Below are positions 24,583 through 42,988 of a DNA stretch of 64,000 bases, piece by piece; the stretch's first letter is position 1; every line of letters begins with the position of its first letter. The position numbers and the translations under genes were made by a program. Source of the DNA: Porticoccaceae bacterium (lineage in GTDB: Bacteria; Pseudomonadota; Gammaproteobacteria; Pseudomonadales; Porticoccaceae); assembly GCA_021773435.1 (NCBI GenBank), contig JAJFKC010000036.1, positions 62,001-126,000 of the forward strand, written 5' to 3'. The notes beneath the pieces were generated by a model. That model saw only the letters and a program-made list of their open reading frames with translations, was not told the origin of the DNA and ran no database searches.

Positions 24583-25241
24583 TTCGCTTTGACGGCGTCG
24601 GTAAGCGCTACGAAGAGGGCTTTGAAGCCCTGAGCGGCATTGATCTGGCCATGGCTGCTGGTGAAATGGCTTTTTTAACCGGACATTCCGGGGCTGGCAA
24701 AAGCACCCTGCTGAAGTTGATCATGTTGATGGAACGGCCCAGTCGGGGCCAGTTACTGATTAATGGTAAAAACCTCAATCGGCTACATCGCAGCCAGATT
24801 CCGTATTATCGTCGACGCATTGGCGTGGTGTTTCAGCATCATCAACTACTTTTTGATCGCACCGTATTTGATAACGTCGCCCTTGCGCTGCAGGTGTCTG
24901 GACATCAACCTCAGGAGATTGGCCGGCGGGTACGGGCATCTCTCGACAAGGTCGGTTTGCTCGACAAAGAAAAGCTTAATCCCCTGCAGTTATCGGGTGG
25001 CGAGCAGCAACGGGTCGGCATTGCGAGGGCGGTGGTGCATAAACCGAAAATACTGTTAGCGGATGAGCCCACCGGCAATCTTGACCCGGACCTGTCTTCA
25101 GCAATCATGCAGCTGTTTCGGGACTTTAGTGATGTCGGCGTGACGGTGCTGATTGCCACCCACGATATTGATCTCGTCGAACGGATGAATGAGCGTGTCT
25201 TACATCTTAAAAATGGTCGGCTAAGTGCAGATGAAGCGTGA
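24579..25241 (+). CDS. ftsE: Cell division ATP-binding protein FtsE
   Basis: The ABC ATPase of the FtsEX complex, which activates peptidoglycan hydrolysis at the septum. It has 220 residues: Walker A GHSGAGKSTLLKL, the Q-loop VFQHHQLL, signature LSGGEQQRVGIARA and Walker B ILLADEPTGNLD are all intact. It overlaps ftsY by ATGA and ftsX by GTGA, so translation of the three genes is probably coupled. Confidence 0.97.
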   Translation: MIRFDGVGKRYEEGFEALSGIDLAMAAGEMAFLTGHSGAGKSTLLKLIMLMERPSRGQLLINGKNLNRLHRSQIPYYRRRIGVVFQHHQLLFDRTVFDNVALALQVSGHQPQEIGRRVRASLDKVGLLDKEKLNPLQLSGGEQQRVGIARAVVHKPKILLADEPTGNLDPDLSSAIMQLFRDFSDVGVTVLIATHDIDLVERMNERVLHLKNGRLSADEA

Positions 25242-26248
25242 ATCGATATAGAGATAAGCGCAGCGACGATGCCATTGTGCCCAGGGAAGTGTCGGGTGGT
25301 GCTGTGCTCAGGCGCCTCGGTTGGGGTAACAGAGTTGACGGCTGGTTGGATAGCCACCGAAATAATGGCCGTGACAGCCTGGCTCGCCTATGGGCAGAGC
25401 CCGTGCAAAGCATGACGACGATACTAGTGATAGCCATTGCCATTGCTCTACCGGCAGCACTGTGGGTAGCGGTTTCCAATCTTCAACAATTGAGTGGCAG
25501 CTGGCAAAACAGCGCGCGGGTGAGCGTGTTTATCGACAAAGATATTGCGCCAAAGCTTACCCAGCAGCTGATTGATAAGGTTCGGCTGATGCCGCAAATA
25601 GAGACGGTCGATTATATTTCACCAGAGGCCGCACTCAATGAATTTCAGCAGGCATCCGGTTTCGGCGAAGTGCTGGCGCTGCTCGATGTGAACCCCCTGC
25701 CCGGTGTTTTGGTATTGTCGCCAACGCCTGAGCTGGTCAGCGATATTGCAGGTATGACAGTTTTGCTTGATGAACTGGGTACCTTGGTCGGTGTTGCAGA
25801 CGCTCAGCTCGACATGCAATGGCTACAGCGTTTACAGCAGATTCTAGAAATGGGCCGACGGATGGCGGTGTTGCTTGGTTTTACCCTGGCATTGGGCGTA
25901 TTACTGGTGATTGGCAACACCATCCGGCTGGCCATAGAGAGCCGCCGCGATGAAATTCTGGTGGTTAAACTGGTCGGGGGCACCAACGGTTTTGTCCGGC
26001 GACCATTCCTCTACACAGGCCTTTGGTATGGATTGTTTGGCGGCATGATCGCCTGGGTCGGGGTAGTGCTGGGTGGTATATGGATTGACCATAAGGTCGT
26101 TAGTCTGGCGGTGCTTTACCAAAGCAGCTTTTCGCTGATTGGCATTGGCGGTGAGGGATTGCTGGTCTTGGCGATTCTGGGTGCGGCTTTAGGCTTGCTT
26201 GGCGCGACCTTGGCGGTCGGTCGACATATCGCTCGTATTGAGCCTTAA
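25238..26248 (+). CDS. ftsX: Cell division membrane protein FtsX
   Basis: The membrane partner of FtsE. The 336-residue protein has a cytoplasmic start, a first helix (about residues 63-85, near ILVIAIAIALPAALW), a large periplasmic domain that in other bacteria recruits EnvC-type activators, and three C-terminal helices around a loop with ESRRDEILVVKLVGGTNGF, the typical MacB/FtsX coupling segment. It starts with GTG inside the ftsE stop. rpoH follows. Confidence 0.95.
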   Translation: MNRYRDKRSDDAIVPREVSGGAVLRRLGWGNRVDGWLDSHRNNGRDSLARLWAEPVQSMTTILVIAIAIALPAALWVAVSNLQQLSGSWQNSARVSVFIDKDIAPKLTQQLIDKVRLMPQIETVDYISPEAALNEFQQASGFGEVLALLDVNPLPGVLVLSPTPELVSDIAGMTVLLDELGTLVGVADAQLDMQWLQRLQQILEMGRRMAVLLGFTLALGVLLVIGNTIRLAIESRRDEILVVKLVGGTNGFVRRPFLYTGLWYGLFGGMIAWVGVVLGGIWIDHKVVSLAVLYQSSFSLIGIGGEGLLVLAILGAALGLLGATLAVGRHIARIEP

Positions 26249-26391
26249 TAATGGGTGAAATATTAAATTACATGAAAAAACAGCCGCTTAAGGGAACTTT
26301 TTGGGCGTCTAGACATCTAATCCTGAAGTGGTAGACTATGCCTCCAAATTTAAGGGGCTGGTCTAAAGAGAGGCGTTCTTCTGAGGTAATT

Positions 26392-27246
26392 ATGAACAAA
26401 AACCTTCAATCTTTACAGTGGATGGCACCGGGTGGAAACCTGGGCGCCTATATGCAGGGCGCAAATTCTATCGCCGTGTTATCTGTTGAGGAAGAAAAAG
26501 CGCTAGCCGAGCGCTTATATTATGAGGATGACGTCGAAAGCGCCCGCCAACTGGTGTTGGCCCATCTGCGTTTTGTTGTCCATATTGCCCGATCCTACAA
26601 CGGTTATGGCCTGCCGCTGGCAGATTTGATTCAGGAAGGTAACGTCGGCCTGATGAAGGCGGTGCGGCGTTTTAACCCTGAAAAAGGCGTTCGCCTGGTG
26701 TCCTTTGCGGTGCATTGGATTAAGGCAGAAATCCATGAATACGTGCTGCGTAACTGGCGTATCGTGAAAGTCGCTACCACCAAGGCGCAGCGCAAATTAT
26801 TCTTTAATCTGCGCGGTGCGAAAAAACGCCTGGCCTGGTTGACCGACGATGAAGCGGCGGCCATTGCTCAGGATCTCGGTGTTGAAGTTAAACATGTGCG
26901 GGAAATGGAGAATCGGCTCTCCGCTCGTGATCCGGGTTTTGATGCAGGCGTTGACGATGATGACGAAGAAGCCTATCAGGCACCGGCGCAGTATCTTGAA
27001 GATCGTAGTGCTGATCCGGCGCTACTAATCGAAGATGCCGATTGGAAGGCCGATAGTAACAGCCGACTGGCGAGCGCGATATCGGGTCTTGACGAACGTA
27101 GTCAGGATATATTGCAGCAGCGTTGGCTGAATGAAGACAAGGTCACGTTGCATGACCTGGCCGCAAAATATTCGGTGTCTGCGGAGAGAATTCGGCAGCT
27201 TGAACAAGGCGCCATGAAAAAAATGAGGGCTGTACTCGAAGCTTGA
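26392..27246 (+). CDS. rpoH: RNA polymerase heat-shock sigma factor RpoH (sigma-32)
   Basis: Directs transcription of heat-shock genes. The 284 residues equal the E. coli length. Region 2 contains [26 protein letters not shown] and the core-binding, -10-recognition segment [18 protein letters not shown]; the RpoH box QRKLFFNLR follows, and region 4.2 is [24 protein letters not shown]. The ATG at 26392 has GAGG six bases upstream and matches the family start. A strong terminator follows. The conserved ftsE-ftsX-rpoH order is kept. Confidence 0.97.
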
Positions 27247-27278
27247 TCAATGGCATCAATGAAGTAATCAATATAGTC

Positions 27279-27321
27279 AGAAATATAAAAAGCCGCGATT
27301 AACGCGGCTTTTTATATTTCT
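27279..27321. terminator. Strong bidirectional terminator after rpoH
   Basis: A perfect 19-bp inverted repeat (27279-27297 with 27303-27321) with a 5-base loop. The GC core GCCGCG/CGCGGC is flanked by A-run and T-run, so it can end transcription in either direction. Confidence 0.92.
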
Positions 27322-27382
27322 GATACCAAATCTCGGCAAAGCATCGACGCATCAGTTATCGCTAACAGGAGAGGCCAATCAA

Positions 27383-27805
27383 TTGAATATAAACCGCCCA
27401 TTGGGCGCCACACGGTGGCTGATGATTATTGCAGCTGCCAATGGCTTTGTAGCGGTCGCGCTGGGCTCATTTGCCGCCCATGGCTTACACAGCTACGCGG
27501 CGGCAGAATTAGTTCCTACCTGGCAAACCGGGGTGCGCTACCACATGATTCACGTGATCGCGGCGCTGATAGCCGGCATGGTGGGGCGCTTTAGTGTGGC
27601 GGGAGGCGTGGTTGGCGGTATGGCGGCGCGAATGGCGACCATTGCCGGGTGGCTATTCCTTGGGGGTATCCTGTTCTTCTGCGGCAGCCTCTATTTATTG
27701 GTGTTAGCGGCGCAAGGCTGGTTGTCAATAACAGCACCACTTGGCGGCGTGTTGTTATTACTGGGTTGGGCGTCTCTTACCTGGTCATTAATAAGCAAGC
27801 ACTAA
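27383..27805 (+). CDS. DUF423 family membrane protein
   Basis: A 140-residue integral membrane protein of the DUF423 (YgdD) family with four predicted helices. The signature ANGFVAVALGSFAAHGL lies in the first helix, and TGVRYHMIHVIAAL begins the second. Function is unknown. It starts with TTG at 27383; a strong AGGAGAGG lies 8 bases upstream, which decides the start. It may be co-transcribed with trmB, which begins 23 bp downstream. Confidence 0.88.
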   Translation: MNINRPLGATRWLMIIAAANGFVAVALGSFAAHGLHSYAAAELVPTWQTGVRYHMIHVIAALIAGMVGRFSVAGGVVGGMAARMATIAGWLFLGGILFFCGSLYLLVLAAQGWLSITAPLGGVLLLLGWASLTWSLISKH

Positions 27806-27828
27806 AATACGCGAGTACTAAGCAAGTA

Positions 27829-28584
27829 ATGAGCGATCGAATACCTGGCACTGAATTATCTTTGGCTGGGGCGATGACAGTTAAAAACCCATTCAGCCCC
27901 GAGCACAAGAAAAAACCAATCCCAAGCTATGTAGTGCGTAGTGGCCGAATGACCGACGGACAACGTAAGGCTCTGTCGGGGCATTGGTCGCAGTATCGAT
28001 TGAGTCTGTTTGATGGCCCGCCGGCCTCCTGGCAGCAGGTCTTTCAACGCGAGGCTCCACTGGTTGTTGAAATCGGTTTTGGTATGGGGGACTCACTGCT
28101 GGACATGGCAGCCAATGAGCCGGAAAATAATTTTATCGGTATCGAAGTCTATCCGCCCGGCGCCGGTCGCCTGGTAAGCAAGGTAGTTGAACGCGGTATC
28201 AGCAACCTGAAAATTTATCTGGCCGATGCTGTTGATGTACTGGATGACTGTATCGCTGAGCAAAGCCTGTCGCGGTTACAAATATATTTCCCTGATCCCT
28301 GGCACAAGAAACGGCATCACAAGCGGCGGCTCGTGCAGGCACCTCTGGTTGAAAAAATACATACCAAACTGAAAGTGGGAGGAGTTTTTCATCTGGCTAC
28401 AGACTGGCAACCCTATGCCGAGTATATGGTCGAGGTGATAAACCAGGTCAGCGGCTTCTATAACCTTGCCGAACGCCCGCCCTATTGCGCTCGGCCTGCA
28501 TACCGACCGCAAACCAAGTTCGAGCGACGGGGTCTCAAGCTAGGACACGGTGTTTGGGATCTAATATACCAGCGCAGGCGTTGA
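27829..28584 (+). CDS. trmB: tRNA (guanine-N7-)-methyltransferase TrmB
   Basis: Methylates G46 of tRNA using SAM. Motif I reads EIGFGMGDSLLDMA; the family-specific YFPDPWHKKRHHKRRLVQ and TDWQPYAEYM are present, as is the C-terminal TKFERRG. Two starts are reasonable: ATG 27829 (251 residues) or ATG 27874 (236 residues, giving MTVKNPFSPEHKKKP, closer to the E. coli beginning). Neither has a clear ribosome binding site. The stop overlaps the next gene. Confidence 0.94.
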   Translation: MSDRIPGTELSLAGAMTVKNPFSPEHKKKPIPSYVVRSGRMTDGQRKALSGHWSQYRLSLFDGPPASWQQVFQREAPLVVEIGFGMGDSLLDMAANEPENNFIGIEVYPPGAGRLVSKVVERGISNLKIYLADAVDVLDDCIAEQSLSRLQIYFPDPWHKKRHHKRRLVQAPLVEKIHTKLKVGGVFHLATDWQPYAEYMVEVINQVSGFYNLAERPPYCARPAYRPQTKFERRGLKLGHGVWDLIYQRRR

Positions 28585-29084
28585 ACTTGGTTAGGGGTAT
28601 CGATGCAAACTCTTTTTGGGAGTTTTCAATATCCGTCTACAAACGTCCCGGTGTCGCGGACTATTGCCTTAACTTGCAGGACAAGCATGGTGCTCTGGTT
28701 AATCTTTTATTGTTTTGTTGTTGGCTCGGCCTTCAGCAGCGCAGGCTGGATAGAGCTCTCCTAAAACAGGTCGAGCGAGTTATTAGTGGCTATAACGGCC
28801 GCGTAACACAAATTATCCGTGCAGAACGTCGACAATTGCTCGGCACAGATTCGAAGCAACAGGTAAAACGAGCATTGCTGGCGCAGGAGTTGAACGCAGA
28901 GCGTGAAGAGCAGGACAGATTGTTTGCATGGTTTGCCGATGGTCTTGATCTGCCAGTCGATTATTCAGGCAGCGAGCTGGTGGCGATTAACGTTCAGTGT
29001 TACCTGAATGAGCTTGATGGGATATTGCCGAGTCCAGAAGTTCTGGTTGATGCAGCGCTCAATTGTTGTGCCGCTCGACTTTAG
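28581..29084 (+). CDS. TIGR02444/DUF2390 family protein
   Basis: A protein of about 167 residues in the DUF2390 family, recognised by SFWEFSISVYKRPGVADYCL and LNLLLFCCWLGLQ-type residues near the start, with an alpha-helical, Glu/Gln-rich remainder. Function is unknown. No ATG is available at the expected N-terminus; the best start is a TTG at 28581 that overlaps the trmB stop (TTGA), with AGG just upstream. A frame opening at 28485 inside trmB is less likely to be the true start. Confidence 0.75.
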   Translation: MNLVRGIDANSFWEFSISVYKRPGVADYCLNLQDKHGALVNLLLFCCWLGLQQRRLDRALLKQVERVISGYNGRVTQIIRAERRQLLGTDSKQQVKRALLAQELNAEREEQDRLFAWFADGLDLPVDYSGSELVAINVQCYLNELDGILPSPEVLVDAALNCCAARL

Positions 29085-36266: not shown

Positions 36267-37526
36267 CTATTTACGCTTCATCGCCCCGAAAAAATCTTCA
36301 TTACTTTCAAAGCTTTTCAGTTTATCGACTAGAAACTCGGTGGCCGCCAGGTCTTCCATATCGTGTAATAATTTACGCAATATCCAAACTCTTTGAAGTT
36401 CTGCTTCGTCCATTAGTAAATCTTCGCGACGGGTTCCTGAGCGGCGAATATTGATCGCTGGATAGACGCGTTTCTCGGAAATCTTACGATCCAGGTGCAA
36501 CTCCATATTACCCGTGCCCTTGAATTCTTCGTAGATTACTTCATCCATTTTTGAGCCGGTATCGACCAGCGTGGTGGCGATAATAGTCAGGCTACCGCCG
36601 AATTCAATATTTCTTGCGGCACCAAAAAACCGTTTGGGCTTTTCCAGTGCGTGGGCGTCAACACCGCCAGTCAACACTTTTCCGGAGGACGGAATAACGG
36701 TGTTATAGGCGCGCGCCAGGCGGGTAATTGAATCAAGCAGGATGACTACATCTTTTTTGTGTTCGACCAGGCGCTTGGCTTTTTCGATCACCATGTCGGC
36801 AACTTGTACGTGACGGGCTGGCGGTTCATCAAAGGTTGACGCCACCACTTCTCCACGCACTGTGCGTTGCATCTCGGTGACTTCTTCAGGCCGCTCATCG
36901 ATTAACAGGACGATCATGATTGTTTCTGGGTTGTTACGTGTGATCGCCTGGGCGATGTGCTGCATCATGATAGTTTTACCGGCTTTTGGCGGCGCGACGA
37001 TTAAGCCTCGCTGGCCTTTGCCTATAGGAGCGACCAGGTCGATGATTCGGCCTGTGAGGTCTTCTGAACTACCGTTGCCTGCCTCCAGCACGAAGCGGTC
37101 ATCGGGGAATAAAGGGGTGAGATTTTCAAACAGAATTTTGTTACGCGCGTTTTCGGGCTTATCAAAGTTGATTGTATTGACTTTCAGTAGCGCAAAATAA
37201 CGTTCACCATCTTTGGGTGGCCGAATTTTGCCCTCTATACTATCGCCGGTACGAAGGTTAAATCGCCGTATTTGGCTGGGCGAAACATATATGTCATCGG
37301 GTCCGGCGAGATAACTTGAATCAGACGAGCGTAAAAATCCAAATCCGTCGGGCAATATTTCTAGCACGCCATCGCCATAAATATCTTCACCGCTTTTCGC
37401 GTGTCGCTTCAGGATATTGAAAATTATGTCTTGCTTGCGGGAGCGCCCCAGGTTCTCAAGACCTGTTTCGGCACCAATGGTTATCAATTCGTCAATTCGT
37501 TTGGTTTTTAGATCAGTCAGATTCAT
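36267..37526 (-). CDS. rho: Transcription termination factor Rho
   Basis: A hexameric RNA helicase that ends transcription at rut sites. It has 419 residues, the standard length. The N-terminal [15 protein letters not shown] and cold-shock RNA-binding domain ([19 protein letters not shown]) precede the ATPase domain with Walker [13 protein letters not shown], Walker [18 protein letters not shown], the Q-loop and the R-loop region [19 protein letters not shown]. It lies downstream of trxA, the common order, behind a 434-bp leader with a C-rich, G-poor stretch. Confidence 0.98.
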
Positions 37527-37616
37527 ATGTTTTCAAGATAGTGTTTAGTGGATATGATTTAGTGGATGTGGATTGATGGAGATAGTGTGCTTGGTGGGTA
37601 GTTTGGTGGGGCGATT
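37527..37616 (-). promoter_or_regulatory. C-rich, G-poor rho leader, candidate rut site
   Basis: In the roughly 90 bases directly upstream of the rho ATG, the plus strand has only three C but more than thirty G, so the rho mRNA leader has more than thirty C and about three G. Pyrimidine-rich, unstructured, C-over-G RNA is what Rho binds. An imperfect 15-base direct repeat (about 37543-37557 and 37558-37572) lies within it. It is well placed for autoregulation of rho by premature Rho-dependent termination, a mechanism known for rho in E. coli. Confidence 0.65.
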
Positions 37617-37960
37617 ACCAGTGGAATTTAATTAAAAACCTTGAAGGGTTAGTTAGCGATGATGGCTTTATAATGAATGCAGCCCTGTGTAACAGAACGC
37701 TGGGTTCGATTAAACAGTTGCGCAATTTGCGCTAGTTCTTATGTGTTACTGGTTTGAATATTCGGGGATTTAAAATTACGGTATTCGGGAAGAAACTGCT
37801 TTATTTCGCGAGTATACCGCCTGCACACGAAATAACAACTGGTTTTTCCAGACCTTTTAGCTTCAATTCAGCGTGTCAAAAAGGCGATGCTAGTATTGAT
37901 TTCCGGTCAGGATCGATGAAAAAACTTTCGCGCCTAATGTTTACAATCTGTGTTCACGAA
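37617..37960. other. Remainder of the trxA-rho intergenic region (344 bp)
   Basis: No gene is supported here. A 78-codon plus-strand frame (37754-37990) runs into trxA antisense and has no ribosome binding site. The stretch is long for a spacer between co-oriented genes and should contain the rho promoter and leader, but no convincing promoter pair or intrinsic terminator for trxA could be picked. Confidence 0.5.
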
Positions 37961-38287
37961 CTAGATGCCTGCATCAACAAACTCACTTAGCTGTGCTTTT
38001 GATAGCGCACCAACTTTGGTGTCTTGCAATGCGCCATCCTTGAACAGCATCAAGGTAGGAATACCGCGCACATTAAACTTGGCGGCGACTTCCTGATTGG
38101 CATCGACATCCAGCTTGCATATTTTAAGTTTGCCGTCGTAATGGTCGGCAATTTCGTCGAGTATTGGTGCGATCATTTTGCATGGGCCACACCACTCAGC
38201 CCAAAAATCGACCAGAACCGGGGTGTCGGCACCGAGCACATCATTATCGAAATTGGCGTCGGAGGTATGTACTATTTTGTCACCCAT
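37961..38287 (-). CDS. trxA: Thioredoxin 1
   Basis: A 108-residue cytoplasmic thiol-disulfide reductant. The active site is [13 protein letters not shown], and the cis-Pro segment is [12 protein letters not shown]. The length and N-terminal [15 protein letters not shown] are those of the standard TrxA. It is divergent from the TVP38-oxidoreductase gene and upstream of rho on the same strand. Confidence 0.97.
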
Positions 38288-38506
38288 TGAGTTTACTCCA
38301 GGCTATTTGAAGGGGCTGATACGAAGGCAGGCATGATAACACTCGTTTCGTTTCCCAAACAATCTAACGAAGCCCAAACAATCTGCCGACCGTTTGCGAT
38401 ATCAATATTCGAGCCAATAACACGGTTATTATGAACTACTTGATGGTTTGAGATTCTAAACCAGGCGAAAAAACTATCGCTTGCGGGCGATATTGAGGAG
38501 TCGGTT

Positions 38507-40657
38507 TTGTTGAAGAAAGTGCTGGTCGTTATGGCGGTTGCTATCGGCGTCGCTGTTTATTTTCTATTAGATTTACAGCGTTTTATCAGCGTTGAATTTT
38601 TTCAGGGCCTTTATCGACAACAGCCAAACGTAACAGCTGGCATATATTTCCTGATTTATGTCCTTGCGACGACCCTTTCGCTCCCCGTCGGCGCCCTGTT
38701 GACCCTGGCCGGGGGCGCGGTGTTTGGCTTAACCACCGGAGTTGTATTGGTGTCGTTTGCCAGTACCATCGGCGCAACATTTGCCTTTCTGGCATCTCGC
38801 ACCGTGCTGAGTGACTGGGTGCAAAATAAGTTTGAATCGCGGATGCAGGTGGTCAATCGAGGTGTTGAAAAGGAGGGTGCACTTTATCTGTTTTCGCTAC
38901 GACTGATACCTTTGTTCCCGTTTTGGCTGCTCAACCTGGCTATGGGCCTGACGACTCTCAAGATCCGCACGTATTTTTGGGTGAGCCAGTTAGGCATGCT
39001 GCCAGCGACGGTTGTGTATGTGAACGCGGGTTCTGAACTGGCGGCCATAGAGGAGTTATCAATTTCGGGTATTTTAACGCCAGGGTTATTATTGTCGTTT
39101 ACCCTCCTCGCCCTGCTGCCATTTTTTGCCAGAGCTGTGGTGACATTTTTGAAGCGTCGAAAAGTTTATCAAGCGTATAAAAAACCAGGGCATTTCGACG
39201 CCAACATGGTCGTGATTGGAGGTGGCAGCGCTGGTCTGGTAACAGCGTTGATCGGCGCAGCTGTGAAAGCCCGGGTTATCCTGGTGGAGAAAGCCGACAT
39301 GGGTGGCGATTGCCTCAATACCGGTTGCGTGCCGAGTAAGGCTTTAATTAAAGCCGCTCGCACCATGGCGGATATTCGCAGGGCTGATGAACTGGGTATA
39401 AGCGTCGATGAGCCCACGGTTGATTTCCCCAGGGTGATGGAAAGAGTCGCCGATGTTATTAACACCATAGCACCCCATGACTCTGTTGAGCGATTCACTG
39501 AGCTGGGCGTTGAGTGCATATCCGGTCAGGCTGCACTCGTATCGCCCTGGGAAGTCCAGGTCGATAACCAGGTTATCACCGCAAAAAACATCATCATTGC
39601 GACCGGCGCCAGGCCATTTGTGCCGCCTATCCCCGGTCTCGAAAAGCTTGATTATTTAACTTCCGACAATTTATGGAACCTACGTGAGCAACCTAAATCA
39701 ATGTTGGTCTTGGGCGCTGGGCCGATTGGCTGTGAACTAGCTCAGGCTTTTCAAAGGCTAGGGACGCAGATCACGCTAGTAGATATGATGCCCAACGTAC
39801 TACCCCGAGAAGACAGGGACGTGTCTGACCTCGTCCGCAGGCAACTAGAACGTGAGGGCGTTGAGGTTCTACTCAACCACAAGACCGTTGGTTTCGAGCG
39901 AGCCGACCAGGTGGACTTTGCTTTGCTTGAACAGGTAGAGCAAGGTCAACAGCAACCGATTACAGTGCAACAACGTAGAATAGCATTCGATAAAGTATTG
40001 GTCGCGGTAGGCCGTAAAGCCATAACAGATGGACTGGGTCTGGAAGCACTGGGTCTAGAAAAAACGCCCCAGGGCACTTTGGCGGTGGATGAATATTTGC
40101 GGACTAAATTCCCAAACATTTTTGCCTGTGGTGACGTGGTCGGACCTTATCAGTTCACCCATACCGCCTCCCATCAGGCCTGGTATGCTGCGGTTAACGC
40201 CCTGTTTGGAAGCGTTAGAAGATTTGCCGTTGATTACAGCGTTATCCCCTGGACAACGTTTACCGATCCGGAAGTTGCTCACGTTGGACTTAGTGAAGCT
40301 GACGCGCGAGAAAAAAACATCGCCTACGAGGTGACCACTTATCCATTAAGTGATCTGGATCGTGCAATAGCCGATAATACCGTCGAAGGCTTTGTTAAAG
40401 TGCTGACACCACCGGGCAAAGACCGGGTATTAGGCGCCACAGTGATTGGAGCGCATGCTGGTGAATTAATCACCGAGTTTGTCACTGCCATGAAACAAAA
40501 TCTGGGCCTGAACAAAATACTCGGTACCATCCACGCCTACCCGACCTTGAGCGAAGCCAATAAAATGGCCGCTGGTGTCTGGAAGCGTGGTCACGCGCCG
40601 GAAAAATTACTAAGCTATGCGGAAAAATATCACCGTTGGCGATTAGGGAGAAAATAG
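38507..40657 (+). CDS. TVP38/TMEM64 (DedA-like) membrane domain fused to a FAD-dependent pyridine nucleotide-disulfide oxidoreductase
   Basis: A 716-residue fusion. Residues 1-225 are a TVP38/SNARE-associated membrane domain (about five helices, with LPVGALLTLAGGAVFGL and RLIPLFPFWLLNLAMG). Residues 232-716 are a MerA/lipoamide-dehydrogenase-like flavoprotein: FAD motif VVIGGGSAGLV, redox pair Cys269/Cys274 in GGDCLNTGCVPSKA, NAD(P) motif VLGAGPIGCELAQAF, second FAD motif FACGDV. Near the C-terminus the lipoamide-dehydrogenase HAHPT reads HAYPTLSEA, so its base is a Tyr as in MerA; the N-terminal HMA domain and the C-terminal Cys pair of MerA are absent. The substrate is unknown. An ArsM-like gene follows after 4 bp. 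Confidence 0.88.
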   Translation: MLKKVLVVMAVAIGVAVYFLLDLQRFISVEFFQGLYRQQPNVTAGIYFLIYVLATTLSLPVGALLTLAGGAVFGLTTGVVLVSFASTIGATFAFLASRTVLSDWVQNKFESRMQVVNRGVEKEGALYLFSLRLIPLFPFWLLNLAMGLTTLKIRTYFWVSQLGMLPATVVYVNAGSELAAIEELSISGILTPGLLLSFTLLALLPFFARAVVTFLKRRKVYQAYKKPGHFDANMVVIGGGSAGLVTALIGAAVKARVILVEKADMGGDCLNTGCVPSKALIKAARTMADIRRADELGISVDEPTVDFPRVMERVADVINTIAPHDSVERFTELGVECISGQAALVSPWEVQVDNQVITAKNIIIATGARPFVPPIPGLEKLDYLTSDNLWNLREQPKSMLVLGAGPIGCELAQAFQRLGTQITLVDMMPNVLPREDRDVSDLVRRQLEREGVEVLLNHKTVGFERADQVDFALLEQVEQGQQQPITVQQRRIAFDKVLVAVGRKAITDGLGLEALGLEKTPQGTLAVDEYLRTKFPNIFACGDVVGPYQFTHTASHQAWYAAVNALFGSVRRFAVDYSVIPWTTFTDPEVAHVGLSEADAREKNIAYEVTTYPLSDLDRAIADNTVEGFVKVLTPPGKDRVLGATVIGAHAGELITEFVTAMKQNLGLNKILGTIHAYPTLSEANKMAAGVWKRGHAPEKLLSYAEKYHRWRLGRK

Positions 40658-40661
40658 TAAA

Positions 40662-41783
40662 GTGGAATCATCAAACGTTTACGAAAATGTAAAAGATCGA
40701 TATAGCGAAGGCGCGCAACTGCGACAGGAAACATTGTGTTGTCCGGTGGATTACGATCAGTCGCTGTTAACTGCCCTGCCCCAGGAAATAATCGATAAGG
40801 ACTACGGCTGCGGTGATCCCTCTCGTTATGTTCGCAAGGGTGACCGTGTGCTCGACCTGGGCAGTGGCGGCGGCAAGATATGCTATATGGCTGCGCAACT
40901 GGTCGGAGATGAAGGCCACGTCACGGGGGTCGATATGACCGATGACATGTTGGCCCTGGCCAGAAAATATCAGGCGGATATTGCCAGGACTTTGGGAAGT
41001 GATCGCGTCACATTTTTGAAGGGCAACATACAGGATTTGGCTCTCGACGTTGCCGCCACAGAAAACTTTTTAGGCGAGCGGCCAGTCAATAATACCGTTG
41101 AATTGCAGGCCCTTTTGGCCATGCAGGCTAAACAGCGAAGCGATCACCCGCTGATCCCAGATAGCTCTATAAACCTTGTGATTAGTAATTGCGTGCTCAA
41201 CCTGGTGGCAGAAACAGATCGAAAACAAATGATTAGCGAAATCTACCGAGTTCTGGCGCCAGGTGGTCGAGTGGCGATATCAGATATTATCGCTGACGAA
41301 AATGTACCTGATGCGTTAAAAAATGATCCCGATCTGTGGAGCGGTTGTATTTCGGGGGCATTTACAGAGACTGATTTCCTGGACGCGTTTGTTGATGCCG
41401 GATTTGTCGCTGTTGCTTATGATAAATGGGATAGCACTCCCTGGCAGGTCGTGGAAGGCATTGAGTTTCGTTCGGTAACACTGACGGCCACCAAACTGAC
41501 TAAAGATGATGACTACGATGGTGGTCATGCAGTGTTGTATAAAGGTCCCTACGCACAGGTGCAGGATGAGCTGGGTGTAACGTACCTGCGTGGCGAGCGT
41601 ATGGCCGTGTCAAAGCACAATCATGACCGCTTGTTGGCAGGCTGTTACGGAGAGGATTTCATTGGCTTCGAGCCAGAGCAGCTGGTTAATCACGGGCCAT
41701 ATAATTTGCCCGCTGGAGCATTGCGGTCAGCTGCCACCACCAGAGGTGGCAGCCTCAATAGCGAGGCCAAAAGTTGTTGTTGA
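40662..41783 (+). CDS. arsM: ArsM-like arsenite methyltransferase
   Basis: A 373-residue SAM-dependent methyltransferase. Motif I is VLDLGSGGGKICYMAAQL. The cysteine pattern is that of ArsM: Cys50 in DYGCGDPSRY, Cys177 in SNCVLNL and Cys229 in WSGCISGA, close to the spacing of the arsenic-binding cysteines of characterised ArsM. Extra cysteines lie at 26-27 and the protein ends in SCC. It would methylate As(III), but related thiol-reactive substrates cannot be excluded. It starts with GTG, 4 bp after the TVP38-oxidoreductase, so the pair is an operon. The symbol rests on this motif pattern, not on a tested activity. Confidence 0.82.
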   Translation: MESSNVYENVKDRYSEGAQLRQETLCCPVDYDQSLLTALPQEIIDKDYGCGDPSRYVRKGDRVLDLGSGGGKICYMAAQLVGDEGHVTGVDMTDDMLALARKYQADIARTLGSDRVTFLKGNIQDLALDVAATENFLGERPVNNTVELQALLAMQAKQRSDHPLIPDSSINLVISNCVLNLVAETDRKQMISEIYRVLAPGGRVAISDIIADENVPDALKNDPDLWSGCISGAFTETDFLDAFVDAGFVAVAYDKWDSTPWQVVEGIEFRSVTLTATKLTKDDDYDGGHAVLYKGPYAQVQDELGVTYLRGERMAVSKHNHDRLLAGCYGEDFIGFEPEQLVNHGPYNLPAGALRSAATTRGGSLNSEAKSCC

Positions 41784-41818
41784 CCGATCCTGGGCTACGG
41801 ATTTTAAATGCCAAATCG

Positions 41819-42955
41819 TTAGAGGCGCGATAACACCGTGTCTAAAAAACGTAGACCCAGTGGAGTTGTTGCGAGGCCCTTATCAGGACTGACCACCAAG
41901 CCTTCGTTTTCTAACTCTTGCCATACTTTTGCCATCACCTCGAAGTTCAGCCCTGTTCTCTGACGGAAATCAGACCTTGTTGCGCCGCCATTGAGTCGCA
42001 GAATATTCATAAAGAATTCGATGGGTAATTCTGCCTCGCTTAAAGTGCGAACTCCCGTCAGATAGTTTTTCCCCTCATTTAGGTAATCCCGAGGCAACCG
42101 AGTTTTATTGGTACGAATAATCTGCTGCTTGTCGGGCAGGGTAATTTTACCGTGAGCACCGGCACCAATACCTAGATAGTCGCCAAACTGCCAATAATTA
42201 ATATTGTGCCTGGCCTGGCGGCCGGGCTGAGCAAATGCAGCAATTTCGTATTGTTCAAAGCCAGCATTTTGCAACGCGGCGAGACCGATGTCCTGAATCT
42301 CTTCGAGCCGACGCTCATCGGGCAGCCGTGGTGGTGAAGAATAAAACGCGGTGTTGGGTTCAATAGTTAGTTGATACCACGACAGATGTGTAGGTTTAAG
42401 GGCGACGGCCTGCTCGATATCAGTGAGTGCTTGTGCGGCAGTCTGATCGGGCAAGCCGTGCATCAAATCGAGATTGAAGTTTTCAAACCCGGCCTGTTTT
42501 GCAGAGTTAATTGCTTGAATAGCTTCTGTACCACTATGAATACGTCCAAGGCTTTGCAGGTGTTGGTCGTGAAAACTCTGGGTGCCGATGGAAAGCCGGT
42601 TCACCCCGCCGCTTTTGTAACCCCGGAATTTTTCCTGTTCAAAAGTGCCCGGGTTGGCTTCTAGGGTAATCTCAGCATTTTCGGCGATGCCAATAATCTG
42701 TTGTACGGCGTTAATTATTTTTTCGATAGATAGCGCTGAAAACAGGCTGGGGGTGCCGCCGCCAAAAAAAATAGATACCAATTCGCGACCCTGACCTAAG
42801 TGCGCATCATTTTTTAAATCTTCAATCAGGTTTGTAACATAGATATTTTCGGGGAGATCGCCAGAGCTGGCGTGGGAATTAAAATCACAATAAGGACATT
42901 TTTTTACGCACCAGGGGATGTGGATATAGAGCGATAATGGCGGTAATTCAAGCAT
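41819..42955 (-). CDS. hemW: Radical SAM heme chaperone HemW
   Basis: A radical-SAM-family heme chaperone once annotated as an oxygen-independent coproporphyrinogen oxidase. It has 378 residues; the cluster motif is PWCVKKCPYCDF (CxxxCxxC), followed by FFGGGTPSL and LEANPGTFE. HemW differs from HemN by its shorter N-terminus. The ATG at 42955 is chosen; a TTG at 42970 in frame is possible. It follows rdgB, as in Pseudomonas and E. coli. Confidence 0.95.
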   Translation of the reverse strand: MLELPPLSLYIHIPWCVKKCPYCDFNSHASSGDLPENIYVTNLIEDLKNDAHLGQGRELVSIFFGGGTPSLFSALSIEKIINAVQQIIGIAENAEITLEANPGTFEQEKFRGYKSGGVNRLSIGTQSFHDQHLQSLGRIHSGTEAIQAINSAKQAGFENFNLDLMHGLPDQTAAQALTDIEQAVALKPTHLSWYQLTIEPNTAFYSSPPRLPDERRLEEIQDIGLAALQNAGFEQYEIAAFAQPGRQARHNINYWQFGDYLGIGAGAHGKITLPDKQQIIRTNKTRLPRDYLNEGKNYLTGVRTLSEAELPIEFFMNILRLNGGATRSDFRQRTGLNFEVMAKVWQELENEGLVVSPDKGLATTPLGLRFLDTVLSRL

Positions 42956-42988
42956 CGAGGCCGCCAGCAAAGGTAAGAAGCAAAGGGG

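Follow-up and report, generated by a model that had tools for sequence, protein, structure and literature searches.

Why should a flavoprotein resembling mercuric reductase, and joined to a membrane domain, be encoded directly in front of a methyltransferase for arsenic? The question is raised by two adjacent genes on the forward strand of a 64,000-nucleotide stretch of DNA, here called the window, from a Porticoccaceae bacterium (assembly GCA_021773435.1, contig JAJFKC010000036.1, positions 62,001 to 126,000). The first gene (38507–40657) encodes a fusion of a TVP38/TMEM64 membrane domain (VTT) to a class-I flavoprotein disulfide reductase; the second (40662–41783), separated from it by a spacer of four bases (40658–40661), has as its predicted product an ArsM-type arsenic methyltransferase. 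Together, the two genes probably represent one half of a dispersed pathway for arsenosugars, possibly for arsenosugar-lipids. The broader statement, that the pair belongs to an arsenosugar or organoarsenical pathway, may be made with somewhat greater confidence; the assignment of a specific reductase step to the flavoprotein is tentative.

In marine food webs, arsenosugars and arsenolipids are among the major arsenic forms. Their synthesis by ArsM and ArsS is already known, as is the architecture of the fusion, reported both in the available part of PMC10127716 and by an NCBI product name. In arsenosugar synthesis, according to the accessible portion of PMC12159101, a radical S-adenosylmethionine (SAM) enzyme adenosylates arsenic; in the available parts of the sources, reactions are assigned to the steps of ArsM methylation and ArsS adenosylation only. 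The neighbourhoods described here name one concrete candidate reductase and suggest, from context, what the most common COG0398 DedA fusion may do. A link between TVP38-flavoproteins and arsenosugars was not found among the papers listed in searches of the open literature, as covered by titles and the beginning of abstracts, subscription papers falling outside this coverage.

Association with arsenosugar genes

The distribution of the genes was evaluated in 144 related genomes, searched with the methyltransferase, with the fusion (E at most 1e-150) and with the arsS model TIGR04167. The fusion is present in 80 of them, five of which (G003, G018, G091, G122, G142) match by the flavoprotein part only. 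The gene arsS is found in 56 genomes and ArsM in 55, where clear ArsM-type matches are counted and general methyltransferase matches (E about 1e-7 and worse) were dropped. The fusion occurs in 53 of the 56 genomes with arsS, versus 27 of the 88 without it, leaving three genomes with arsS and no fusion; the figures for ArsM are similar, with the fusion in 52 of 55 genomes featuring ArsM, versus 28 of 89 lacking it, and three genomes where ArsM is present and the fusion is not.

The genes also tend to be neighbours. In 28 of the 55 ArsM genomes the fusion lies less than 1 kb from ArsM, as measured between alignment pieces: 7 carry the type of ArsM found in the window and 21 the canonical type. 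The window's type is present in 9 genomes; the two without a fusion within 1 kb are G132, with only 164 bases of contig upstream of ArsM, and G033, where ArsM directly follows arsS. In eight genomes (G011, G022, G092, G103, G109, G125, G138, G142) the fusion is located within about 250 bases of arsS. As more than half of the ArsM genomes have the two genes within 1 kb, and as the two are seen linked again in different gene arrangements and in a second phylum, the pairing of fusion and ArsM is far beyond chance. The pair, first noticed in an earlier note made from the letters of the window, is thus conserved in other genomes.

The remaining genes of an arsenosugar set are present in the window's genome (3.4 Mb, 98.7% complete), at a distance from the gene pair, which lies on contig C30. 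On contig C6, arsS scores 451 bits with TIGR04167 (cut-off 300); beside it are matches to TIGR04283 (257 bits, cut-off 182) and TIGR04282 (192 bits, cut-off 134), both named 'arsenosugar biosynthesis glycosyltransferase' by NCBI. A match to acr3, over its cut-off, is on contig C19. The four families of the set (ArsM, ArsS TIGR04167, TIGR04282 and TIGR04283) are therefore all found in this genome, ArsM in the window itself; since arsS and the glycosyltransferases are on C6 and the pair is on a separate contig, the set is split over two loci. A second difference from the set is that the window's ArsM is not of the type described by NCBI's 'arsenosugar ArsM' model (115 bits, cut-off 400). In the database records examined, no arsenosugar name is attached to the TVP38-flavoprotein.

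In relatives, one or both members of the pair are found in the same operon as arsS. G125, G103 and G092 feature the order arsS, TVP38-flavoprotein, TIGR04283, TIGR04282, with a DUF547 gene inserted after the TVP38-flavoprotein in G092; TVP38 and flavoprotein are in one frame in G125 and G092, and are divided by a stop codon in G103. A plasmid of Acinetobacter portensis carries arsS, the fusion, DUF547, TIGR04283, TIGR04282, a methyltransferase 60% identical to canonical ArsM, and a phosphate transporter, with a gene for methylthioadenosine (MTA) phosphorylase on the opposite strand. Outside Proteobacteria, the cyanobacterium Pseudanabaena galeata has a plasmid with TVP38, mercuric reductase, arsM, TVP38 and arsS annotated in a row: the reductase shares 41% identity with the window's flavoprotein, shows the same GGDC..GC and HxYPT motifs and lacks cysteines among its 40 C-terminal residues. 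The earlier note had pointed to the neighbourhood of arsS in other genomes as the place to look for the pair, and both partners are indeed repeatedly linked to arsS and to the arsenosugar-named glycosyltransferases.

Two further observations concern these gene sets. On plasmid p1 of Cupriavidus sp. KK10 (locus L052, 7947–12998) the order is ArsM, a YciW-like (peroxidase-related) gene, arsS, flavoprotein, TVP38, the last two being separate genes in reversed order. MTA phosphorylase genes are located near arsenosugar sets both on the Acinetobacter plasmid (L164) and on a Burkholderia glumae plasmid (L139); the enzyme could act by phosphorolysis of dimethylarsinoyl-adenosine, providing ribose-1-phosphate for the glycosyltransferases.

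A collection of species genomes was also scanned with an alignment of nine window-type ArsM sequences, and neighbours within 6 kb were counted for the best 80 of at least 545 confirmed stretches, a sample biased to near relatives and including many metagenome-assembled genomes. arsS is present in 47 of the 80 loci. TVP38 and flavoprotein are fused or directly abutting in 14 loci and both present as separate genes in 14; in 9 the flavoprotein is found alone, two of these being merely 26% and 31% identical. In locus L086 seven genes follow one another with nearly no gaps: flavoprotein, TVP38, arsS, ArsM, TIGR04283, FA_hydroxylase and TIGR04282. The counts suggest, for a sample of mostly gammaproteobacterial genomes, that the lineage of ArsM found in the window is often at work in arsS sets; the member of this lineage that has been studied produces arsinothricin. 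In seven loci (L105, L108, L113, L115, L119, L131, L133) a gene of the fatty-acid hydroxylase family is directly upstream of ArsM, with no arsS within 6 kb; its product is possibly a lipid-modification partner.

Domains and conserved residues of the two proteins

The open reading frame of the fusion starts with TTG and encodes 716 residues. Residues 62–176 (38690–39034) match the VTT domain PF09335 (E 3e-24; 86 bits, over the gathering cut-off of 34), while residues 233–688 (39203–40570) form the FAD/NAD(P)H disulfide reductase part, recognized by sequence matches to PDB entries and by two Pfam domains: Pyr_redox_2 (residues 233–558, E 5e-65) and the dimerisation domain (580–688, E 4e-31). NCBI names homologues 'bifunctional TVP38/TMEM64 family protein/FAD-dependent oxidoreductase'. 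In the AlphaFold model (pLDDT 79, from 13 sequences) the VTT part is mostly helical. All the 50 PDB matches listed for this model are lipoamide dehydrogenases and mercuric reductases, aligned on the flavoprotein part; none of these 50 is to the VTT part alone.

In this class of flavoproteins, NAD(P)H donates electrons to FAD, from which they reach a dithiol. The redox-active dithiol of the fusion is Cys269...Cys274 (GGDCLNTGCVPSK, 39311–39328, motif GGDCLNTGC). Conservation was evaluated in an alignment of 76 flavoproteins from the loci compared, including that of the window: a cysteine is found at position 269 in 72 rows (the others being 2 X and 2 gaps), and at position 274 in 73 (2 X, 1 gap). 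Tyr678 (40538–40540), in the motif HxYPT, is a tyrosine in 75 of 76, and all three residues are kept in each of the 36 fused-length rows. The position of Tyr678 is occupied by His in the lipoamide dehydrogenase 1ebd and by Tyr in the mercuric reductase 5x1y, as aligned with the fusion.

The fusion thus has the fold and the CxxxxC motif of both mercuric reductase (MerA) and dihydrolipoamide dehydrogenase, with the tyrosine of the former; the membrane domain is extra to both. A C-terminal cysteine pair is a feature of MerA; the last cysteine of the fusion is residue 541, so the pair is absent, and no HMA domain was matched in the Pfam search. The reading given in the earlier note is confirmed on all these points: a 716-residue fusion with Cys269 and Cys274, a MerA-like tyrosine replacing the histidine of lipoamide dehydrogenase, and the lack of both HMA domain and terminal cysteines. 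The histidine preceding PT is catalytic in dihydrolipoyl dehydrogenase. In the fusion it is replaced by Tyr678, and yet the score with the dihydrolipoyl dehydrogenase model TIGR01350 is 409.7, against a cut-off of 408.8; automatic annotation, by this margin of 0.9 bit, may therefore misname the flavoprotein. The same domains characterize the most common fusion of COG0398 DedA/TVP38 proteins, in which these proteins are joined to PF07992 and PF02852 (PMC10127716). In the accessible portion of that survey the architecture is linked to aerobic metabolism only; the window's fusion, in contrast, is tied to ArsM and arsS gene sets.

The methyltransferase gene starts with GTG and encodes 373 residues. 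Pfam methyltransferase domains, ArsM models and solved ArsM structures all match its product, the PDB sequence alignments spanning the last three of the four ArsM cysteine positions. For its AlphaFold model (pLDDT 73, from 9 sequences), the best 13 PDB matches are all ArsM or AS3MT (E 6e-24 to 3e-21), followed by a next match at 1e-11. Where the earlier note had described three cysteines, four ArsM positions are found: Cys26-Cys27 (40737–40742), Cys50 (YGCGDP, 40809–40811), Cys177 (SNCVLNL, 41190–41192) and Cys229 (SGCISGAF, 41346–41348). Each of them is conserved in 88 of 88 aligned rows of the window's type and in all 20 rows of canonical ArsM, taken from relatives; within the type Cys26, Cys27, Cys50, Cys74, Cys177 and Cys229 are invariant. 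The terminal SCC of that note stands, like its ArsM assignment and the distance of 4 bp from the fusion: Cys372-Cys373 (41775–41780) correspond to a CC that 84 of the type's 88 sequences, and all 20 canonical ones, have within their last four residues.

With canonical ArsM/AS3MT (4fs8, 5evj, 8xt7) the protein has in common the fold and the cysteine positions. It differs by an insert of 32 residues (129–160; 41046–41141), largely helical in the model, and by an identity of about 30–34% only to the canonical ArsM of relatives. The insert is 32 residues long in 85 of the type's 88 sequences, 28–29 in the other three, and is absent from all 20 canonical rows. The score with the NCBIfam arsenite methyltransferase model NF008823 is under the cut-off (187 bits vs 263), as are the scores of the canonical ArsM of three relatives (176, 177 and 198 bits).

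The nearest curated model, and best NCBIfam match, is NF040538, of the arsinothricin methyltransferase, reached with 331 bits, under its cut-off of 500. The cysteines of this enzyme, BgArsM, are at 30, 54, 181 and 233, according to the available part of PMC8552651, with a spacing equal to that of 26, 50, 177 and 229 in the window's protein; the same insert is therefore likely in BgArsM. A quick tree was built from 52 sequences: 30 of the type's 88, 20 canonical ones, an arsinothricin ArsM and a staphylococcal relative. The window's type forms one branch in it (SH-aLRT 96). The arsinothricin ArsM and the staphylococcal relative fall on its side, their exact place being unsure because the branches are long. 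A methyltransferase 44% identical to that of the window is encoded on a Staphylococcus plasmid (L161), downstream of an ArsR/SmtB-family regulator and a permease gene.

Proposed role and competing explanations

ArsS probably acts on trivalent arsenic, as ArsM does. For ArsM, both substrates and products are trivalent, pentavalent forms arising by non-enzymatic oxidation (PMC8552651, as far as accessible). If so, methylated intermediates would need something keeping them reduced, and a reductase of methylated arsenic, or of ArsM thiols, is the missing function that a MerA-like flavoprotein would fit best. In the proposed route ArsM would produce dimethylated arsenic from arsenite, ArsS, whose gene lies elsewhere in the genome, would add to the arsenic the adenosyl group of SAM, and the TIGR04283 and TIGR04282 glycosyltransferases would complete the sugar. 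At the inner membrane, the TVP38-flavoprotein would use NAD(P)H, by way of FAD, to supply the Cys269/Cys274 dithiol with electrons. The dithiol might then reduce pentavalent methylated arsenic (or arsenic-thiol/disulfide species) to the trivalent form for ArsM and ArsS or, alternatively, recycle the reducing thiols of ArsM. TVP38 would act as an anchor, and may handle a lipid-linked product; a role of VTT in moving or loading such a product is no more than suggested by the fatty-acid hydroxylase and phosphatidyltransferase neighbours. Every chemical step, as well as electron donor, substrate and role of TVP38, is to be read in this conditional sense.

The earlier note had proposed reduction at the membrane, coupled to methylation, of a thiol-reactive element, with arsenic, mercury and arsenolipid synthesis among the options. 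The coupling is plausible, and of the options arsenic and the arsenolipid/arsS one are favoured, given the conservation of the pair and the linkage of both partners to arsS and glycosyltransferases. In its widest form the proposal would see TVP38 and MerA-like flavoprotein, fused or adjacent, as a redox component of arsenosugar/arsenolipid biosynthesis that is widespread, from Proteobacteria to Cyanobacteria, and has gone unrecognised: a membrane NAD(P)H-dependent methylarsenical reductase feeding ArsM and ArsS, with TVP38 handling a lipid-linked arsenic product. This form is more speculative than the reductase step itself, and is put forward as a conjecture.

A number of findings weigh against the arsenosugar reading. 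In the window's genome the gene pair and arsS share no operon, and the names of TIGR04282 and TIGR04283 are NCBI's inference. The associations of the fusion with arsS and with ArsM both reach p < 1e-14 in Fisher tests, which ignore shared ancestry; because the genomes share ancestry, these co-occurrence statistics are descriptive only. In 17 of the 80 loci with window-type ArsM there is no match to arsS, TVP38, flavoprotein or glycosyltransferase within 6 kb (3 of the 17 have less than 4 kb upstream, and 7 contain a fatty-acid hydroxylase gene). Conversely, arsS and ArsM are both missing from 19 of the 80 genomes with the fusion; among genomes lacking both genes, G014 and G031, of genus g10, carry the fusion in the same chromosomal slot as the window, without ArsM. 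Plasmids of Catenovulum, Pseudooceanicola, Pseudoalteromonas and Klebsiella feature the fusion with an ABC transporter and a CDP-alcohol phosphatidyltransferase, in stretches without annotated arsS or ArsM, although plasmid gene tables are incomplete; on a fifth plasmid it is found with a TonB receptor, a nucleoside transporter and a phosphatidyltransferase. Plasmid stretches of Hymenobacter, Burkholderia glumae and Thiodictyon contain arsS without an annotated fusion, that of Hymenobacter showing arsS and TIGR04283 and no annotated TVP38 or flavoprotein across 13 kb: the TVP38-flavoprotein is accordingly a frequent partner, not a universal one. Finally, in a quick tree of 63 flavoprotein rows (short or duplicate rows of 17 loci were left out), fused forms with and without ArsM/arsS neighbours are intermixed, and 16 separate flavoproteins, found beside arsS and window-type ArsM, form a sister clade, not nested in the fused forms.

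Some of these findings would be expected if the fusion served aerobic bacteria as a membrane reductase of thiols and disulfides in general, adjacent to ArsM merely by a favourable or old gene order. The genomes with neither arsenic gene, the two of genus g10 and the plasmid cassettes without annotated ArsM all speak for such a role, as does the survey of COG0398 fusions (PMC10127716), which ties the architecture, in its available part, only to aerobic metabolism. The recurrence of the linkage in several gene orders and in a cyanobacterium, and the presence of the fusion in nearly all arsS genomes, argue against it, and the explanation is considered unlikely. Its supporting evidence does indicate, because of the 19 genomes and of the plasmid cassettes, that the fusion is not strictly an arsenic-pathway protein everywhere: either a broader redox role was recruited to arsenic, or the fusion acts on organoarsenicals even in bacteria that do not make them.

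A plain detoxification of arsenic, with reduction and methylation to volatile or excreted methylarsenicals and no arsenosugars, is improbable as well. ArsM alone suffices for methylation, acr3 is present in the genome and arsS is on another contig, all of which fit detoxification; the same genome, however, contains arsS with both arsenosugar glycosyltransferases, and the window's ArsM type has arsS within 6 kb in most of the loci analyzed.

Far less probable is a pathway of the arsinothricin type, where ArsM would methylate an arsenic amino acid. It is suggested by the best NCBIfam match and by the cysteine spacing of BgArsM (PMC8552651, available part). The score, however, is far under the cut-off, and ArsL is found in none of the 144 genomes at E 1e-15, nor in the window's own at E 1e-3, while the positive control of this search was found on the query's own plasmid; furthermore, the frequent neighbour of this ArsM type is arsS, not arsL, which was not searched in the 80 loci.

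Reduction of mercury, tellurium or selenium by a MerA-like enzyme, coupled to methylation, is the least credible explanation: in spite of Tyr678 and of about 377–378 bits with the MerA model TIGR02053, the fusion stays under the cut-off of 454, lacks the C-terminal cysteine pair and is only second-best in its genome, where a different protein, on contig C32, scores 537 bits, and where five MerR-model matches, none over cut-off and two near that MerA, are all outside the window's contig; nothing observed points to tellurium or selenium, for whose genes no search was made. With a separate MerA over cut-off, a mercury role of the fusion is not needed to explain the genome, and mercury, one of the elements named in the earlier note, is an unlikely substrate. 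The C32 region (about 24905–28871) contains that MerA with MerR-like genes nearby, one of them, under the MerR cut-off, about 1.7 kb away, and is a probable true mercury locus of the genome.

Chromosomal slot and further observations

Promoter and terminator scans at the pair showed no excess over shuffled sequences, a tRNA scan of the window found none, and one scan of viral contigs with the methyltransferase produced no match.

The chromosomal position of the pair was compared with that in related genomes, with gene names assigned by eye. In the congeners G001 and G004 the pair lies, as in the window, between rho-trxA and hemW-rdgB; in G002 only the hemW side is available, as the contig starts inside the fusion, and in G003 only the rho side is common. 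In the sister genus g4, three genomes (G040, G044, G067) feature the fusion and a canonical ArsM in the same slot, and two (G019, G076) a canonical ArsM without the fusion. Since canonical ArsM occupies this slot in g4, the window's ArsM was either replaced or strongly diverged in place; insert-bearing and canonical forms in one slot (36267–42970 of the window, set against loci L047–L051) look like an in-place replacement.

The thioredoxin-like gene at 37961–38287 was considered as encoding a reductant for ArsM, and rejected: trxA-rho adjoins the fusion also in the two g10 genomes without ArsM, and no special link between thioredoxin and ArsM is therefore claimed. Separate flavoproteins beside arsS were likewise discarded as direct ancestors of the fusion, given the 16 in the sister clade and the few separate or abutting forms among the fused ones. 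The plasmid cassette recurring in L054, L135, L136 and L137 is composed of the fusion, a DUF547 or FAD oxidoreductase gene, an ABC transporter (binding protein, permease and ATPase) and the CDP-alcohol phosphatidyltransferase, with a sterol desaturase in some; one of these plasmids, from Klebsiella, is conjugative.

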